Source of the DNA: Elusimicrobia bacterium HGW-Elusimicrobia-1
GTDB taxonomy: Bacteria > Elusimicrobiota > Endomicrobiia > PHAN01
Length of the DNA stretch: 64,000 nt
Assembly: GCA_002841695.1 (NCBI GenBank)
Contig: PHAN01000006.1
Span: forward strand, 1-64,000
Reading direction: 5' to 3'
Shown here: positions 21,400 to 29,480 of the stretch, in pieces
How positions within the stretch are numbered: the first letter of the stretch is position 1
Layout: the number at the start of each line of letters is the position of its first letter
Notes under the pieces: generated by a model
Told to the model about the DNA's origin: nothing
The model's database searches: none
The model's input: the letters and a program-made list of their open reading frames with translations, nothing else
Translations under genes and position numbers: made by a program

Positions 21400-22893
21400 A
21401 TGAAATCATCCGACTATCTGAAAATAATCCTTGGGATTGCCGGCAACGGACGGGTATATCTCGTCGGCGGAGCCGTGCGCGACCTGCTGTCGGGACGTCC
21501 GTCGAGCGACTTCGACTTCGCAATGAGCGCAAATCCGTCGCGCATGGCCGCGAAGTTCTCCCGCGCGGCGGTCGCATCCGTGGTCGTTCTCGACGAAGAA
21601 CGCAAAATATACCGCGTCGTCAAGAAAACGTCATCGGGACCGCTGACCTTCGACTTTTCCGCATACCGCGGACCGACCATAGAGCGCGACCTTATGCTGC
21701 GCGACATCACCGTCAACGCGATGGCCCTGCCGCTTAAAAGCGCCGCCGCGCTGCTCGACGAGACATCGGACGCGGAAAAAAAAATAGCCACCGCGCTGCT
21801 GGATCCGTCGGGCGGCCTGGACGACTTTAAGAAGCGCCGCATAAAACTTGTCCGCGAAAAAGCAGCGCGCGAGGACCCCGCAAGATTGCTCAGAGTGTTC
21901 CGTTTCGCCGCCGAACTCGGCTTTGCCGTCGAGCCCAAAACACTCGCGTCGTGCCGGCGGCTCCGCGGCAAAATCCTTGAACCGGCTCCGGAGCGGCTGC
22001 GCGACGAGATATTTAAGATTTTCGCCACCGACCGCGCTTTGTCGTCGGTAAAAATGCTCGATAAAACCGGAATTCTTGAAATTCTTGCGCCTGAAATCAC
22101 GGCGCTGAAAAAATCCTGCAAAAGTTTCTACTTTCATCCGCAGGGGCTCTGGCACCATCTCACCGAAACTCTCGGCCGCGTCGAGGAATACGCATCCGAC
22201 GTCCCGTCGCAATTTCCCGAGGCCGCCGGTGACATCGGGCGGTATCTTTCAAGGCAGATGTCCTCCGGCAACGTTAAATCACTGCTTAAATTCGTCACGC
22301 TCCTGCACGACGCGGGAAAACCCCTCTGCGCGAAACGCATCGCAAAAAGAATGAGATTTTTCGGCCATGAGACAGTCGGCATCAAGGTCTTCAACGACAT
22401 AGCCGTCCGGCTTAAATTCTCGCGGGACGAAATGAAGTTCGCCGCGACCCTCATAAAAAATCACATGCGGATTCTTCAGCTCGTCGGCTCGGGAAATACT
22501 TCGGACAGGGCGGTTTATCGTCTCAGACGCGACGCCGGCGACACTTTTCCGGCGCTCTGTCTGCTGTCGCTGTCGGACGCGGCCAGTTACAGGAACCTCA
22601 AAGGATTCGAGAAAAATAATGTTTCGGTCGTCCACGATTTCGTGAGCAAAGCGCTTAAAAATTATTTTGACGATATGAAAAAACCGCCGCGCTCCAAAAT
22701 AATAGACGGCCATATGATTATGCGTCGGCTCTCGATAAAACCCGGGCCGGCCGTCGGCGTCATACTCAAGCGCCTCGAAGAAGAACGCGCTGTCGGAACC
22801 GTAAAAACAACCGCCGAGGCGCTCGAATGCGCGCGCGGAATATACAGGGAAATATCCACCGGCGCATCGCCGGAGAAACGGAGACACAAATGA
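21400..22893 (+). CDS. cca: CCA-adding enzyme / polynucleotide adenylyltransferase family protein
   Basis: Adds or repairs the 3' CCA of tRNAs, or acts as a poly(A) polymerase. The protein of about 497 residues has the nucleotidyltransferase core LVGGAVRDLLSGRPSSDFDF near residue 22-41, the tRNA-head motif LLRVFRFAAELGF and an HD domain (LLHDAGKP). The tRNA-Gln in this window lacks an encoded CCA, which fits. I prefer the ATG at 21400. An in-frame ATG at 21346 adds 18 residues that read like translated intergenic repeat. CCA versus poly(A) specificity is not certain. Confidence 0.9.
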   Translation: MKSSDYLKIILGIAGNGRVYLVGGAVRDLLSGRPSSDFDFAMSANPSRMAAKFSRAAVASVVVLDEERKIYRVVKKTSSGPLTFDFSAYRGPTIERDLMLRDITVNAMALPLKSAAALLDETSDAEKKIATALLDPSGGLDDFKKRRIKLVREKAAREDPARLLRVFRFAAELGFAVEPKTLASCRRLRGKILEPAPERLRDEIFKIFATDRALSSVKMLDKTGILEILAPEITALKKSCKSFYFHPQGLWHHLTETLGRVEEYASDVPSQFPEAAGDIGRYLSRQMSSGNVKSLLKFVTLLHDAGKPLCAKRIAKRMRFFGHETVGIKVFNDIAVRLKFSRDEMKFAATLIKNHMRILQLVGSGNTSDRAVYRLRRDAGDTFPALCLLSLSDAASYRNLKGFEKNNVSVVHDFVSKALKNYFDDMKKPPRSKIIDGHMIMRRLSIKPGPAVGVILKRLEEERAVGTVKTTAEALECARGIYREISTGASPEKRRHK

Positions 22894-22960
22894 CTGAAAA
22901 ATCAGCAAAAATGATTTCGGAACGGATACCATCGAATCGCTCTTTAGGATAAGTTCCGAG
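22890..22960 (+). other. apparent frameshift at the start of the GAF-ANTAR gene
   Basis: An ATG at 22890 overlaps the cca stop as ATGA, the usual coupling in this genome. Its frame stops after 20 codons. Shifting back one base at the A-run 22907-22911 gives MTEKSAKNDFGTDTIESLF and runs into the open frame of the GAF-ANTAR gene. The upstream part of that open frame (22898-22960) has no ATG, GTG or TTG. Either one A has been lost in the genome or assembly, or a -1 slip occurs on AAAAA. Confidence 0.6.
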
Positions 22961-23602
22961 ATGGTGTCCGACAAAGTCCTCAACGAAATACTTCGCTTCA
23001 TCGTCAACGTCACGGCCAAAATGATGAAGTCAAAAATTTGCTCGATACTTCTTCTCGACGAGAAAAAGCGCGAACTCTACATAGTGGCCACGCAATCTTT
23101 GAGCGAAGAATACATCAACAAGCCGAACCTTAAAGTCGGCGAGGGTATTTCCGGCATCGCCATCAAAAATAACTCCGTGACTACTTCCGCCGACGTAAGA
23201 ACCGACAAACGTTTCAAATATCCGGAAATCGCCCGCAAGGAAAATATCGTCTCAATGATATCGGTGCCCATTTCGATTAAGGGCCGAGCGGTGGGAGTCA
23301 TAAACTCCTACACTCCCAAAAAACACAAACACACGAAAAAAGAAATAAAACTTCTCGGCACCATAGCAAACCAGGCGGGGCTCGTCATAGAAAATTCCAA
23401 GCTGATGGAAGAAATCAGCACGACAAAACAGATTCTTGAAGTCCGCAAAGCCGTAGAGCGCGCCAAAGGAATTCTTATGCGGGATCTGGCGATTTCCGAG
23501 GACGAGGCCTACAAAATCATACAGCGCAAGTCGATGGACACCTGCCGCCCCATGAAAGAAATCGCCGAAGCGGTGATACTGACGTACGAGATAAAGAAGT
23601 AG
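22961..23602 (+). CDS. GAF-ANTAR domain RNA-binding antiterminator
   Basis: Predicted one-component regulator that senses a signal through GAF and binds leader RNA hairpins through ANTAR to prevent termination. From the first in-frame ATG it is 213 residues. GAF spans about 1-145 (SILLLDEKKRELYI, GEGISGIAIKNN). ANTAR spans about 160-213, with the conserved AVERAKGILMRDLAISEDEAY helix pair read in two parts. About 20 more residues of GAF-like sequence (NDFGTDTIESLFRISSE) lie upstream in the same frame without a start codon, so the true start is probably 22890 with a frameshift. It stands 76 bases before cas9 on the same strand; a regulatory link is possible but unproven. Confidence 0.82.
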   Translation: MVSDKVLNEILRFIVNVTAKMMKSKICSILLLDEKKRELYIVATQSLSEEYINKPNLKVGEGISGIAIKNNSVTTSADVRTDKRFKYPEIARKENIVSMISVPISIKGRAVGVINSYTPKKHKHTKKEIKLLGTIANQAGLVIENSKLMEEISTTKQILEVRKAVERAKGILMRDLAISEDEAYKIIQRKSMDTCRPMKEIAEAVILTYEIKK

Positions 23603-23678
23603 TATTATTTGTTTCTGCCGGCGGGCTGGAGCGTAAAGATTTCACTTGCGATTGGCGGGGAATATACGGGAGGGGAAA

Positions 23679-26600
23679 ATGTCTAAGGGGAATGAACTCG
23701 TTTGGTCGTTTGATTTGGGGACAGGAAGTATCGGGGAATGCGCGCGGCGCGGCAAAGAAATTCTACATCTCCATTCTCTTCTTCTGCCCAACGACTTTGC
23801 TGCCTTGAAAGATGCCAGAGAAAGAAGGCGACAAATCAGAACGCGCGAGGCGCATAGAAAGCGCGAAAATTGGTGGCGGCAACAGGCCAAAAAAGTGGGC
23901 ATAGAAGTTCTTGAAACCGGCCATCGCGCGGACGACGGAACTTTCATCAAACCAGACGCAAGAATGTCACGCCAATTCCCCGAAAATGGCGATAAAACTA
24001 TTTACGCCTCCTGCCTTCTGAGAATCGCTCTTTTACAAGGCGTACAACTCGATGGATGGCAGATTTACAAAGCGATATGGTCAGCGATACAGCGGCGCGG
24101 TTACGACGCCGACCTGCCTTGGAAAAGAGAAGTCAGTCGCAATATCGCCGACAAAGAAACTTCGGAAAAACCGGCAAGCGGGAAAAAACTCGCCTCGCAT
24201 AAAGAAGCTAAAAAAGAGGACGGCGCCGGCGAAAAAGACGAAAAAGAAAATCTCGACGCAGTGCAAAATTATCAAAAAGAACTCGAAAGAGTTTTTAAGG
24301 ACGAGAAATATCGTTTGCCCTGTTACTACGAAGCGTATAAGCTCGGCGTCTGGAACCCCCGCAAACCCGATACCCTTGACGGCAAATTCGGCGCCAACCC
24401 CGAACCCGCCAGAAACAAGGACAACAGAACTTCACTGATTCCGCCCCGCGCTCTCGTCGCCAAAGAATTACTCGTTATGCTGACGCAGGCGTCCAAACAA
24501 TACCCCAAACTCAAAGATAAAGTCCGCTATGTTCTATACGGCCCCGCCGAGCAGGAATACGCTTCTTACAAAGATGAAAAATACGCTCACTATCGCGGCA
24601 CGGAGTGGGACTCGCAGGGTCTAATCTCACAAAAAATTCCAAGATTCGACAACCGCATAATATCCAAGTGCGCGCTTATGCCTCGTTTCAATGTCTGCAG
24701 CGCCAAGATCCGCAAAGACAAGGCCGGCAACATAATTCCTGAGTCGATGTTGCCATCGGAAGTTACCTTTCTTCTCAAACTCAAAAATATACGTTACACC
24801 GATACTACGACGGGCGAAATGGAAAAACCGCTTTCACCGGCGGCGCTCAAAGAATTGTTCAACGCATACAACGACAAGAAACACATCACGCAAAAACAAC
24901 TCGAAAAATATATAAAGACAAATCTATCCGGCCTGCCGCCCGCAAACCTCGTCGAAATCGAAGAACCCAAAACTTCGGGTCGCTCCCGATTCTGCCGCCC
25001 GGCGTTAAGAATTATAAAAGAAATAATACTCTCCGGTAAAAGTCCGCACGCCTACCACGAAGAATGGCTCGCGGCAAACAAAAATAAAGACCTACAAAAA
25101 GGTCTCGTCGCGGATGATGTCAAGTTTCTGCTCGATATGCCCGCGGAGTGGGAAAAACTCCATATACCTGACCGTCGCATAGAGGAATCGGAACTTAAAA
25201 AATCAGAGCGCGAAAAACGCATCGTCGAAATACTCGGTGGCATAACGAATCCAGTCGTCAGACATCGGCTGGAATTATTCATACAGCGCCTGAAAGTCTT
25301 AAAAAATAAATGCCGCGCCGAGGGCGAACCGGCCAAAATAATCCTCGAATTCGCGCGGGAGGGAGAAGAAAGTTTTCAGGGACAAAAGAATAAAAATCGC
25401 CAAAAGTGGGAAAAACTCCAAAAAGAAAACCGGGCGAAAAAAGACGAGGCGTATAAATCTCTTCAAACCGCCGAAATCCACGGCAAACAATCGCTTCTTA
25501 AAATGATGCTCTTCAAAGAGCAGGTTGGTTATGACTTCTACTCGATGACGCCTCTTGTCGCCTCGCGGCTGGAATCCTACGAGATAGACCACATAGTCCC
25601 GCGCGAAGGCGGCGGTTCCGACGCTTATATCAATAAAATTCTGACCACGCCTGACAAAAACCGCGAAAAGGGAAAACACACACCCTTTGAGTGGCGCTCG
25701 TCGGATAAGGCAAAATGGCTGGACTTCATCAAAGCCGTAGGTTCAAGCAAACTACACGACAAGAAAAAAGCTCTGCTGACATCCGAAAATCCGCTTGAAC
25801 TTATAAACAAATACACAGACCTCGCATCCACGGCCTACATATCGAAACTCGCGCAAAAAATAATCCACCTGTTTTTCGGCTGGCCTCAACTCATCGAGGG
25901 TTCGACAAGAAAAGTCGTCGTCGCAAACGGCGGCCTCACCGCGAAACTGCGCAGACAATACAAATTAGACCGACTGCTTCACCCTGGTATTCCCGACGAG
26001 CAATTCTCGGAACTCGCTCAAAGCGGCGAATTGGACAAGAAGAACCGCGCCAACCCCCGCCACCACGCCCTTGACGCCCTCGTAATATCAATGACTCCTG
26101 AACTTAAACTCGACCCCCGAAGTAAAAAAGACATACTCCCCGACTGGTTTCACAAGGAATATTGCCGTCCAATCATTGAAACCGTATATCCCGAGAGAAT
26201 CCGTTTTGAAAAGCCGAAACTTGCCAAGACGATATACGGGTTAAGAAAAAATCTCGAAGATAACCGGGAATTCTATGTGTTCACGACCCGCTTCGGCACC
26301 GGCACGAGAATTGAGCAATTTCGCGAAATCGAGAAAGCGCGGAAATACACCGACGGCATATTCGATGAGCACATAAGAAACGACTTTAATAAAATGCTCG
26401 CCTCGAAGCCCGCTCAGCAGGAATGGGAAAAGTTTCTCGACGAATATGAAGTCGCCGGCTCAAAACCCAAAAAGTTTGTTCAAATCGCCTCGGGAGAAAT
26501 TGACAAAGAAACAGGGGAGAAATTAGAAAGGGGGGAACTCACGACTTACGGAGAGCATGTTCGTGGCAAGATGGCAGGGCAATATTTCAAGAATGATGTG

Positions 26601-26942
26601 TCTTTGGGGTATTTTGTCTATCAGAACGAAAAAGACAGGTGGGAAAGAGAGCCGATTTATGCTTTTGAGTCGCTCTATAAAAAAATAGAAGCACTAAAAA
26701 AAGACCCTGCTGTCAAAAATCCCGTATTCTTTCGCTCGGGTATGCTCGTTGAAATAAAAAACGACTGCAACCTTCAAAATCCAAAACAAAAAGTTACAAG
26801 GGGATTTTGGTACTTGAATACAATCAAAGATGGTGGTGAAGTCAAATTAACCTCTATTGATCACTCACTTGAAAGAAAAGCGCAATTGAACGCTCTAATG
26901 ACCGACGGCAAAATGGCTCCACCACAAGAAAATATTCGTTAA
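23679..26942 (+). CDS. cas9: type II-C CRISPR-associated endonuclease Cas9
   Basis: RNA-guided DNA endonuclease, 1087 residues from the ATG at 23679, which has a strong GGGAGGGG ribosome site. RuvC-I is SFDLGTGSIGE (D12) and the arginine-rich bridge helix is about 43-71. A charged Lys/Glu insert in the recognition lobe is at about 152-200. RuvC-II is IILEFARE (E557). HNH is YEIDHIVPREGGGSDAYINK (H638, with N661 later) and RuvC-III is RHHALDA (H796, D799). All catalytic residues are present. The segment IPRFDNRIIS at 320-329 recalls the Cas9 branch containing Akkermansia. The PAM-interacting end is about 900-1087. Base composition drops there to about 35-38% GC over 26580-26880. No csn2 or cas4 is present, so subtype II-C. 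Confidence 0.97.
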   Translation: MSKGNELVWSFDLGTGSIGECARRGKEILHLHSLLLPNDFAALKDARERRRQIRTREAHRKRENWWRQQAKKVGIEVLETGHRADDGTFIKPDARMSRQFPENGDKTIYASCLLRIALLQGVQLDGWQIYKAIWSAIQRRGYDADLPWKREVSRNIADKETSEKPASGKKLASHKEAKKEDGAGEKDEKENLDAVQNYQKELERVFKDEKYRLPCYYEAYKLGVWNPRKPDTLDGKFGANPEPARNKDNRTSLIPPRALVAKELLVMLTQASKQYPKLKDKVRYVLYGPAEQEYASYKDEKYAHYRGTEWDSQGLISQKIPRFDNRIISKCALMPRFNVCSAKIRKDKAGNIIPESMLPSEVTFLLKLKNIRYTDTTTGEMEKPLSPAALKELFNAYNDKKHITQKQLEKYIKTNLSGLPPANLVEIEEPKTSGRSRFCRPALRIIKEIILSGKSPHAYHEEWLAANKNKDLQKGLVADDVKFLLDMPAEWEKLHIPDRRIEESELKKSEREKRIVEILGGITNPVVRHRLELFIQRLKVLKNKCRAEGEPAKIILEFAREGEESFQGQKNKNRQKWEKLQKENRAKKDEAYKSLQTAEIHGKQSLLKMMLFKEQVGYDFYSMTPLVASRLESYEIDHIVPREGGGSDAYINKILTTPDKNREKGKHTPFEWRSSDKAKWLDFIKAVGSSKLHDKKKALLTSENPLELINKYTDLASTAYISKLAQKIIHLFFGWPQLIEGSTRKVVVANGGLTAKLRRQYKLDRLLHPGIPDEQFSELAQSGELDKKNRANPRHHALDALVISMTPELKLDPRSKKDILPDWFHKEYCRPIIETVYPERIRFEKPKLAKTIYGLRKNLEDNREFYVFTTRFGTGTRIEQFREIEKARKYTDGIFDEHIRNDFNKMLASKPAQQEWEKFLDEYEVAGSKPKKFVQIASGEIDKETGEKLERGELTTYGEHVRGKMAGQYFKNDVSLGYFVYQNEKDRWEREPIYAFESLYKKIEALKKDPAVKNPVFFRSGMLVEIKNDCNLQNPKQKVTRGFWYLNTIKDGGEVKLTSIDHSLERKAQLNALMTDGKMAPPQENIR

Positions 26943-26975
26943 ATCACTTAACGATAGGACGCAAGGAGCGGGGCG

Positions 26976-27881
26976 ATGTCCTACCACTTAATACACATAC
27001 TTCAGCATCAGAGCCGCCTACACATTGACCGCGGATGTCTCGTCCTTGAAACCTCCGACGGGGTCGAAAAACGCGCTCCGCTTGCCGACATTCTTGCCGT
27101 CATAGTCGCCGCGCGCGGCGTCTCATTCTCCGGCGACGCGCTCTCGGCAATACTCTCGAACGGCGGCATCGTCCTTCACTGCGACCACAACTACCGCCCC
27201 GTAGGCAAAACCGTGGGACTTCACCGCGTGGTTCACTCCGAAATTTTCGAGCGGCAAATCGGCAAATCGCCCGATTTTTCCGGTAAACTCTGGTCGAGAA
27301 TTCTAAAAGCCAAAATCGAGAATCAGGCCGTATTGCTTGATTCCATAAAAGCCGCGCACAAACTTCACGAATATCTCGCCGAAGCCGAATGTCCCGACGA
27401 AGGCAACGCCGCCCGCCATTACTGGAAGTTTTATTTCTCCAAGTTCGGAAGAAAAGCGCCCCAAGAAAGAGAACACAAAGACGCCGAGCATCCCGTCAAT
27501 CAAATGCTTAATTATTCCTACGCCGTTATGGGTGCCATAATCCACCGGAGCGCCATAGCCCACGGTCTCAACACTACGCTGGGCATACACCACAAATATC
27601 GCTTCCGCTCCGAGCCGCTCGTTTATGACCTGTTAGAACCACTGCGTCCTTTCTGCGACCTGATGCTTTTACGCTTCAAAACGAGAAACCCCCGCAAACC
27701 GATAGAAGAATACATCAAATCCGTCGCCGCAGACATTGTGGGACTGCGCGTAAGATACGACGCCTCAAAAACCCTTAAACTCGTCAACGCCATAGACCGT
27801 TACATTTCGTCCGTAACCGACTGCTTCTACTCAGGAGTAGTTCAAGAACCCTTTATACCCCGCATAGCGGACTTGTCATAA
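26976..27881 (+). CDS. cas1: CRISPR-associated integrase Cas1
   Basis: Spacer-integration nuclease, 301 residues, normal for type II Cas1. The beta-rich N-terminal domain has RAPLADILAVIVA. The helical C-terminal domain carries the metal ligands E142 (DEGNAARHYW), H205 (LGIHHKYRF) and E221 (YDLLEPLRP). An AAGGAG ribosome site lies just before the ATG. It follows cas9 by 33 bases and shares one base with cas2 (TAATG), so cas9-cas1-cas2 form one operon. Confidence 0.97.
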   Translation: MSYHLIHILQHQSRLHIDRGCLVLETSDGVEKRAPLADILAVIVAARGVSFSGDALSAILSNGGIVLHCDHNYRPVGKTVGLHRVVHSEIFERQIGKSPDFSGKLWSRILKAKIENQAVLLDSIKAAHKLHEYLAEAECPDEGNAARHYWKFYFSKFGRKAPQEREHKDAEHPVNQMLNYSYAVMGAIIHRSAIAHGLNTTLGIHHKYRFRSEPLVYDLLEPLRPFCDLMLLRFKTRNPRKPIEEYIKSVAADIVGLRVRYDASKTLKLVNAIDRYISSVTDCFYSGVVQEPFIPRIADLS

Positions 27882-28231
27882 TGTCCGCCGTAAAGAGTTC
27901 CTATCGTATGGGCTGGCTGGTAGTAATGTTTGACCTCCCGACCGACACCAACGAGGAAAAAAGAAAGGCCGCCCGTTTCCGGAACGACCTTTTGGACCTC
28001 GGTTATCTGATGCTGCAATATTCTATCTATGTGCGTTGCGCCGTTACTCTCGACAAGAAAAAACACTTGGTGTTCGAATTAGAAAAAATAAGCCCCGGAA
28101 CCGGAAGCGTCAAGTGTTTGTTCATAACCGACGCCCAGTGGGGGCAAATGGCGAATATATGCGATGAGAGGAAATATGGGCCGAGGAAGGTGGACAAATC
28201 ATTTGGCGGGGAACAACTTCAATTCTGGTGA
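27881..28231 (+). CDS. cas2: CRISPR-associated protein Cas2
   Basis: Small structural partner of Cas1 in spacer acquisition, 116 residues. The ferredoxin-like first strand is WLVVMFDLPTDTNEEKR with the conserved aspartate, followed by LLDLGYLMLQYSIYVR, typical of type II Cas2. The C-terminal extension ends in GGEQLQFW. It is the last cas gene, and the oppositely oriented tracrRNA lies directly downstream. Confidence 0.96.
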   Translation: MSAVKSSYRMGWLVVMFDLPTDTNEEKRKAARFRNDLLDLGYLMLQYSIYVRCAVTLDKKKHLVFELEKISPGTGSVKCLFITDAQWGQMANICDERKYGPRKVDKSFGGEQLQFW

Positions 28232-28320
28232 TATAAATAAGATAACCCTGACGTGCGAGGCAGAGGTCAAGGTCTCTTGTTTTTTGTTAAGACGGTGCTG
28301 TTAAGATTTTAGCATTTAAG
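28231..28320 (-). ncRNA. tracrRNA candidate
   Basis: Read leftward, 28299-28286 is AGCACCGTCTTAAC, which pairs with the first 14 bases of the crRNA repeat (GTTTTGACGGTGCT) at 12 of 14 positions, leaving two U-U mismatches as the usual bulge. Next comes a nexus-like stem AGAG-N8-CTCT followed by GC (28277-28260). This is the same layout I recall for the Campylobacter jejuni tracrRNA. An alternative seven-pair hairpin (CCTTGAC with GTCAGGG, 28272-28246) is followed by a U-rich tail (TTATCTTATTTATAT), which could end transcription. Both ends are estimates. A -10-like TATGAT lies near 28330. The extended -10 in the nearest repeat is another possible promoter. Confidence 0.8.
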
Positions 28321-28352
28321 CGCGAATCATACAAATCCGCACTATAAATCCT

Positions 28353-28361
28353 ATTATAACA
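28353..28361 (-). promoter_or_regulatory. extended -10 promoter inside each CRISPR repeat
   Basis: Read leftward, every repeat ends in TGTTATAAT, a perfect extended -10. The coordinates give the copy nearest the tracrRNA; the other eight intact repeats carry the same nine bases at their low-coordinate end. A TTGACG sequence lies near the repeat start, but 21 bases before the -10. Initiation would fall in each following spacer, as known for Neisseria type II-C arrays. The copy at 28353 points into the tracrRNA. Confidence 0.65.
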
Positions 28362-28983
28362 AAATCAACTTTTTAGCACCGTCAAAACATGGCACGCGCC
28401 CCATGATTTTGGAAAATTATTATAACAAAATCAACTTTTTAGCACCGTCAAAACGGTTCCCGTACCCCACAATCGCAATATTAAATTATAACAAAATCAA
28501 CTTTTTAGCACCGTCAAAACAATACGCGGGATGAACCATACAAAGAATCGATTATAACAAAATCAACTTTTTAGCACCGTCAAAACAGCCAATTGACCCG
28601 GGGCGTCGGCGGCGCTATTATAACAAAATCAACTTTTTAGCACCGTCAAAACAGGTATATTTATATTGATACTGTTCACATTATTATAACAAAATCAACT
28701 TTTTAGCACCGTCAAAACTCGGTGTGCGCCTCATCGCGGATAAATCCAATTATAACAAAATCAACTTTTTAGCACCGTCAAAACAGAGACGCATACGATA
28801 CCGAAGAAGAGCGAAATTATAACAAAATCAACTTTTTAGCACCGTCAAAACACCTATATTATAGCAGATAAAAAAAGAAAAATTATAACAAAATCAACTT
28901 TTTAGCACCGTCAAAACGATGCCGGCGCATACGAGACGAGAGCGTTCGTTATACCAAATCTATGAGAGAGGGGGAATTATAAC
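28353..28983 (-). CRISPR. CRISPR array, nine 36-bp repeats plus one degenerate repeat, nine spacers
   Basis: Nine identical 36-bp repeats start at 28353, 28419, 28485, 28551, 28617, 28683, 28749, 28816 and 28882; as written they begin ATTATAAC and end CGTCAAAAC. Spacers are 30 bp, one is 31. A tenth, decayed repeat begins at 28948 (GTTATACCAAATC), exactly one spacer length after the ninth. The leftward strand is the crRNA strand: it starts with GTTTTGACGG, as usual for type II, and pairs with the tracrRNA. The spacers are all different. I saw no match to other parts of this window. Confidence 0.98.
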
Positions 28984-28985
28984 GG

Positions 28986-29480
28986 TTAACCACCGATATC
29001 CTTTTTAGATTTTCCCTGTCGTTCAACAACAGTGAGATTTTCGTGGTCGGTCTGGTCTACCGACTTACTGCGTTTTTCAGCAACGACGGCTTTGTTTCTT
29101 TTCAGTTGCTCAAGTCCGAGATAATTTACGGGCGTCGCGCCGTATTTCCCTTTTTCAAGGTTGTTCCATATTTCGTCATCGTTCAGGCCATCGATTTTTG
29201 TAGTAATGTGTACCATAACGGGCGGCTGTCCGAGTTCGAAAATCTTTTTGCGATCTAATAGGTCCTCGGGTTTGGCTCCGGTGCCGACAAATCCAAAATC
29301 CTCTATCGCCTTTATTGCTCTTTTGGCATTTTCCGGCGTCGACTGTATTAGGACATCCATATCGTTGGTAAACCGGGGGCAGGTGTAATACATAACAGCA
29401 TAGGCGCCGACAACACAATAGTTCACATTATTGGCGTTCAACGCTTTTAATAAATCTTCGAAATCCTTTTCTACTCTCAT
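28986..29480 (-). CDS. nucleotidyltransferase-fold protein
   Basis: The 164-residue protein has the minimal nucleotidyltransferase core: the glycine loop CVVGAYAVMYY at about 22-32 followed by TNDMDVLI (about 38-45), with two acidic metal ligands. This pattern is found in stand-alone nucleotidyltransferases, many of them in toxin-antitoxin-like or resistance pairs. The substrate is unknown. Its start overlaps the upstream 65-codon gene by ATGA. Its stop lies right beside the decayed end of the CRISPR array. Confidence 0.78.
   Translation of the reverse strand: MRVEKDFEDLLKALNANNVNYCVVGAYAVMYYTCPRFTNDMDVLIQSTPENAKRAIKAIEDFGFVGTGAKPEDLLDRKKIFELGQPPVMVHITTKIDGLNDDEIWNNLEKGKYGATPVNYLGLEQLKRNKAVVAEKRSKSVDQTDHENLTVVERQGKSKKDIGG

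Follow-up and report, generated by a model that had tools for sequence, protein, structure and literature searches.

The repeats of known Cas9 CRISPR RNAs (crRNAs) begin with GUU, and type II-C arrays of clustered regularly interspaced short palindromic repeats (CRISPR) carry one promoter per repeat, as in Neisseria. Type II-D has been defined by the Cas9d clade, which comprises archaeal and small bacterial proteins, by the presence of cas4 in the adaptation module, and by a Cas1 branch of its own; cas1, cas2, and cas4 are common to the published II-D loci (PMC12669027). Zinc-binding ribbon motifs of Cas9d are located in the recognition (REC) lobe and near RuvC-II (PMC9755519), and the Cas9d protein MG34-1 requires a 158-nucleotide (nt) single guide RNA (sgRNA) (PMC11706934). 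Here, we describe a CRISPR-Cas9 locus at positions 23679 to 28983 of a 64,000-nt stretch of DNA (the window) from the uncultured Elusimicrobia bacterium HGW-Elusimicrobia-1 (contig 6 of a 2.06-Mb genome that is 97% complete) and compare it with these systems.

Overview of the locus

The locus is in all probability a chromosomal type II CRISPR-Cas immune system of functional appearance, with a Cas9 from a bacterial clade of wide distribution. This reading draws on the genes themselves, the intact catalytic residues, the array, clade membership, and a trans-activating crRNA (tracrRNA) recognized by covariation, all of which were observed. The HNH domain lies inside a split RuvC with intact catalytic residues, and a tracrRNA is present, as type II requires. 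The initial annotation had described a complete, compact II-C locus with coordinates that hold exactly, and cas9, cas1, cas2, tracrRNA, and array were indeed all present; the gene set (cas9-cas1-cas2, without csn2 and without cas4) is likewise II-C-like. The tracrRNA candidate and the array were also confirmed, and both were assigned to the minus strand, whereas the cas genes are on the plus strand; on strand, the annotation had been silent. This predicted orientation is based on homology with the GUU start of known Cas9 crRNAs and on the anti-repeat. The features of the locus are as follows.

23679..26942, plus strand: cas9, 1,087 amino acids (aa), ATG start (open reading frame; NF049971, 960 bits; alignment of 54 relatives; AlphaFold2 model)
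Within cas9, in order: RuvC-I (D12), arginine-rich bridge helix, REC lobe, RuvC-II (E557), HNH (D637/H638/N661), RuvC-III (H796/D799), and C-terminal WED/protospacer adjacent motif (PAM)-interacting region
26976..27881, plus strand: cas1 of the type II/NMENI type, 301 aa (TIGR03639, 150.8 bits; PADLOC Cas1_II, 202 bits)
27881..28231, plus strand: cas2, 116 aa (TIGR01573; PADLOC Cas2_II)
28232..28311, minus strand: tracrRNA core, with the anti-repeat at about 28286-28311 followed by the nexus hairpin (anti-repeat match to the repeat; fold)
28235..28282, minus strand: nexus hairpin with conserved CCUCUGCCUxGCACG (fold z-score, -2.7; covariation in 26 sequences)
28353..28917, minus strand: CRISPR array of nine identical 36-nt repeats with spacers of 30 to 31 nt, the ninth spacer extending to 28947
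28353..28361, minus strand: first copy of the extended -10 motif TGTTATAAT, a putative promoter element that closes each intact repeat
About 28948..28983, minus strand: degenerate tenth repeat at the far (crRNA 5') end, finishing GGTATAAC in crRNA sense (read from the sequence)

The Cas9 protein and its clade

The Cas9 matched the NCBI family NF049971 (type II CRISPR RNA-guided endonuclease Cas9d) over its full length (960.2 bits, E = 2e-288, model positions 2 to 984 of 986, cut-off 375), while the general Cas9 model TIGR01865 gave only 219 bits. Relatives also scored high on NF049971 (1,245 bits for a Verrucomicrobial, 1,023 for a Gastranaerophilales, 966 for a Hydrogenedentota, and 581 for a Vampirovibrio protein), whereas a canonical II-C Cas9 from Elusimicrobiota reached 175 bits on this model and 734 bits on TIGR01865. 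Therefore, NF049971 centers on the clade to which the locus Cas9 belongs. Both the full-length match to this family and the repeat-tracrRNA fold described below are far beyond chance.

Among 295 genomes of the phylum, 19 were above the NF049971 cut-off. When one genome per species was scanned, 339 candidate stretches were found to encode a relative, and the best 80 of these were read. The clade has at least dozens of members, hosted by Elusimicrobiota, Verrucomicrobiota, Hydrogenedentota, and Gastranaerophilales, and the aligned members are 30 to 51% identical to the locus Cas9. The cas9-cas1-cas2 order, a reversed array, and a short tracrRNA recur across the relatives, and the intra-repeat promoter motif is present in most of them. 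In some Endomicrobium relatives (L045 and L017), cas9 is broken by a frameshift or stop. No laboratory study, solved structure, or published PAM for the clade was found in the open-access literature or by text look-up in a Cas9 ortholog catalogue. The locus Cas9 is not a lone oddity; it adds a new member to a known clade that has a database name and is apparently uncharacterized.

Kinship with an Akkermansia-like Verrucomicrobial branch, previously suggested from a shared motif, was borne out. Many of the relatives are from Verrucomicrobiota, including two records titled Akkermansia muciniphila (the comparison was with these records rather than with the Cas9 of the type strain), and IPRFDNRIIS is a hallmark of the clade, with PRFDNR invariant in 54/54 relatives.

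All six catalytic residues listed in the initial annotation (D12, E557, H638, N661, H796, and D799) are in place in the 1,087-aa protein. In the alignment of relatives, the last five were invariant (54/54), and D12 was conserved in 53 of the 54 sequences, the sole exception being truncated. The RuvC-I motif SIGE had been singled out as unusual; this did not hold, as 15 of the 54 clade members carry SIGE, next to SIGY in 16 and SLGE in 7, and SIGE was accordingly rejected as an oddity. Four cysteines in the REC region (C215, C331, C340, and C439) are conserved in 74 to 100% of the clade. Their spacing is not that of CxxC pairs, and they might form another kind of metal site.

The AlphaFold2 model of the protein had a Cas9 fold (mean predicted local distance difference test score, 85; predicted template modeling score, 0.70). 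In a Foldseek search with this model, the nearest structures were all Cas9s, headed by St1, Sa, Nme, and Thermo Cas9, at a global template modeling score of about 0.35 to 0.5. By sequence, the match to solved Cas9s was confined to the RuvC-II/HNH/RuvC-III core and was best with the II-C proteins of the Nme/Hpa/Geo type, in agreement with the divergence proposed earlier. A tree of the core placed the clade apart from the Nme and Geo Cas9s and from the other Cas9s of the phylum. Within it, the locus Cas9 grouped with a Hydrogenedentota protein and that of one other bacterium, not with Endomicrobium. An IscB outgroup was sought within the phylum and none was found; the tree was therefore midpoint-rooted, and it contains few named references, with II-A, II-B, and II-D references absent.

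Guide RNA

The repeat reads GTTTTGACGGTGCTAAAAAGTTGATTTTGTTATAAT in crRNA sense. All 48 clade repeats examined start with GTT[T/C][T/C]G, and 32 of them are closed by the extended -10 sequence TGnTATAAT, as is every intact repeat of the locus by its own version of the motif. This placement agrees with the II-C arrangement, in which every repeat has its own promoter, and each element is a presumptive site of transcription initiation.

Across 21 loci and over positions 7 to 16, the anti-repeat agreed with the repeat of the same locus at a mean of 9.3 of 10, compared with 5.3 of 10 for the repeats of other loci. Repeat positions 4 and 5 were mismatched to the anti-repeat in all 21 loci (28286-28301 in this locus, where the rest of the anti-repeat matches). 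In loci with CT instead of TT at these positions of the repeat, the anti-repeat is altered as well, and the mismatch is kept. A single hairpin follows 3' of the anti-repeat, and its consensus pairs were all accompanied by compensatory changes (9/9, 26 sequences). Repeat and tracrRNA together had a fold z-score of -5.9. The tracrRNA core is about 70 to 115 nt long and had no match in Rfam; its 5' end may extend to about 28346 should the -10 box of the last repeat serve as the promoter.

Proposed working and spacer content

By analogy with the family, Cas1-Cas2 would acquire 30-nt spacers. With an extended -10 box in every repeat, the array would probably give rise to short crRNAs through internal, minus-strand transcription. 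Between cas2 and the array, the same strand encodes the tracrRNA, which would pair with the repeat, and the resulting duplex would probably be trimmed by RNase III, which is encoded in the host genome. The 1,087-aa Cas9 with its RNA duplex could then locate invading DNA, and HNH and RuvC would cut both strands beside a 3' PAM.

Several points weigh against a functional immune locus of this kind. The nine spacers yielded no protospacer in the 295 genomes of the same phylum and GenBank phages, nor did five of them, searched as exact 21- to 22-nt matches, in IMG/VR. The matches obtained were only repeats, low-complexity sequences, or weak chance matches. Targeting is therefore putative, as are the transcription of the locus, the tracrRNA ends, and the PAM of its own that the initial annotation had proposed. 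Maturation and DNA cutting are extrapolated from the family, and the II-C and II-D subtype labels are both in play.

Searches with an Endomicrobium array against 96 genomes of the class and with the arrays of two relatives against phages gave nothing usable. Self-targeting was considered and rejected, as no spacer matched the organism's own genome outside the array. Spacers 7 and 9 (28785-28815 and 28918-28947) share CGTATGCG and a CTC/TC-rich start and possibly have related targets.

Subtype assignment

We file the locus Cas9 as an NF049971 member with a II-C-type locus organization and a II-C-like Cas1. Neither the operon of the locus nor those of its relatives showed a cas4, and the only Cas4-like match in the host genome lay on a different contig and did not reach the cut-off. 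The CxxC pairs expected of zinc ribbons are absent from the locus Cas9, and the tracrRNA is short. Therefore, the NCBI name Cas9d and the published definition of II-D disagree for this clade.

There is about an even chance that this is a plain type II-C system, in which the Cas9 represents a divergent II-C branch and the NCBI name is a labeling problem. The cas9-cas1-cas2 set without cas4 or csn2, the NMENI-type Cas1, the extended -10 elements inside the repeats, the lack of CxxC zinc ribbons, and the Nme/Hpa/Geo-type II-C proteins being the nearest solved Cas9s by sequence profile all agree with this. However, such a branch would have to accommodate a TIGR01865 score of 219 bits, against 734 bits for the canonical II-C Cas9 of the phylum, as well as REC and PAM-interacting regions that cannot be aligned with II-C by sequence and a clade that stands apart in the core tree.

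That last observation, together with the family name, could also reflect a true II-D system that has lost cas4, with the archaeal (former II-C2) and MG34-type Cas9d proteins as its sister group. We regard this as possible but doubtful, as cas4 was not seen, whereas published II-D loci have it along with their own Cas1 branch (PMC12669027), and the protein lacks a CxxC zinc ribbon. Furthermore, the tracrRNA core is much shorter than the 158-nt sgRNA of MG34-1 (PMC11706934), and the II-D protein NbaCas9 appeared only at rank 35 in the Foldseek search, a rank also lowered by its shorter length.

A third reading, which we consider unlikely, is that the clade is a separate deep branch of type II, distinct from both canonical II-C and II-D, that has a guide RNA architecture of its own (the 2-nt mismatch at positions 4 and 5 and the single CCUCUGCCUxGCACG nexus hairpin) and an unexplored PAM-interacting domain. 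In that case, it may merit a subtype or variant name of its own.

Genomic neighborhood

The array is adjoined by a minus-strand gene (28986-29480) for a 164-aa protein that is nucleotidyltransferase-like by eye and had no Pfam, NCBIfam, or PADLOC match. In a congeneric genome (G080), the upstream flank of the locus (window positions 21409-23601) is conserved. Just after the same GAF-ANTAR gene, a type I cas3 with an HD domain (L158:3102-3713; TIGR01596, 92 bits) stands in place of the cas9 operon of 23603-28983; the G080 contig ends inside this cas3 gene. Neither a Cas9 of the NF049971 clade nor a Cas1 was detected in the G080 genome. Two congeneric species thus differ in the CRISPR type present at one chromosomal site, which fits replacement or exchange.

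Elsewhere in G080 (L157:5938-5973), a solitary, promoter-like copy of the locus repeat (34/36 positions) lies beside an amidase gene, and its flank resembles spacer 3 of the locus (14/16). No solitary repeat copy was found in the orthologous region of the genome that carries the locus.

The absence of the locus from the sister species, the broken cas9 of some relatives (L017 and L045), and the lack of protospacers would suit a decaying remnant that has lost its defense function, but the open reading frames are full length, no catalytic residue is missing, the nine repeats are identical, and the anti-repeat is intact, all of which makes this very improbable.

Comparison with known systems

As a functional-looking immune locus, this is an ordinary defense system and not a surprise; it is a reasonable tool candidate and a clean case for characterization. 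The clade is widespread and compact (about 1,000 to 1,100 aa) and uses a short guide RNA, and it thus apparently constitutes untapped tool space. It also exposes a naming conflict between the NCBI label Cas9d and loci without the tested II-D hallmarks, and settling this conflict would clarify the relation between II-C and II-D.

Within NF049971, the locus Cas9 matches the family at full length and shares a clade with its Verrucomicrobial and Gastranaerophilales members. The family name implies II-D, yet the locus is without cas4, zinc ribbons, or a long guide RNA. The II-D Cas9d proteins (MG34-1, NbaCas9, and the archaeal former II-C2 proteins) have the general Cas9 fold and the family name in common with it, but they are about 600 to 1,050 aa long, compared with 1,087 aa here, and differ in the presence of CxxC motifs and cas4 and in a much longer tracrRNA.

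More is shared with II-C systems such as NmeCas9 and GeoCas9/ThermoCas9, namely, the gene set and order, the tracrRNA, the 36-nt repeats with a terminal extended -10, and a RuvC/HNH core that is about 30% identical. In contrast, the REC lobe and PAM-interacting region of the locus Cas9 cannot be aligned with theirs by sequence, the clade is distinct, and the repeat-anti-repeat duplex has a conserved 2-nt mismatch. A canonical II-C Cas9 from Elusimicrobiota, on the other hand, matches the Nme and Geo proteins over most of its sequence or the whole of it (about 570 bits). The Verrucomicrobial Cas9s (L064, L077, L080, and others) have the same clade, locus layout, nexus motif, and anti-repeat mismatch as the locus described here, from which they differ in their GC-rich repeats and in a Cas9 identity of 35 to 39%.

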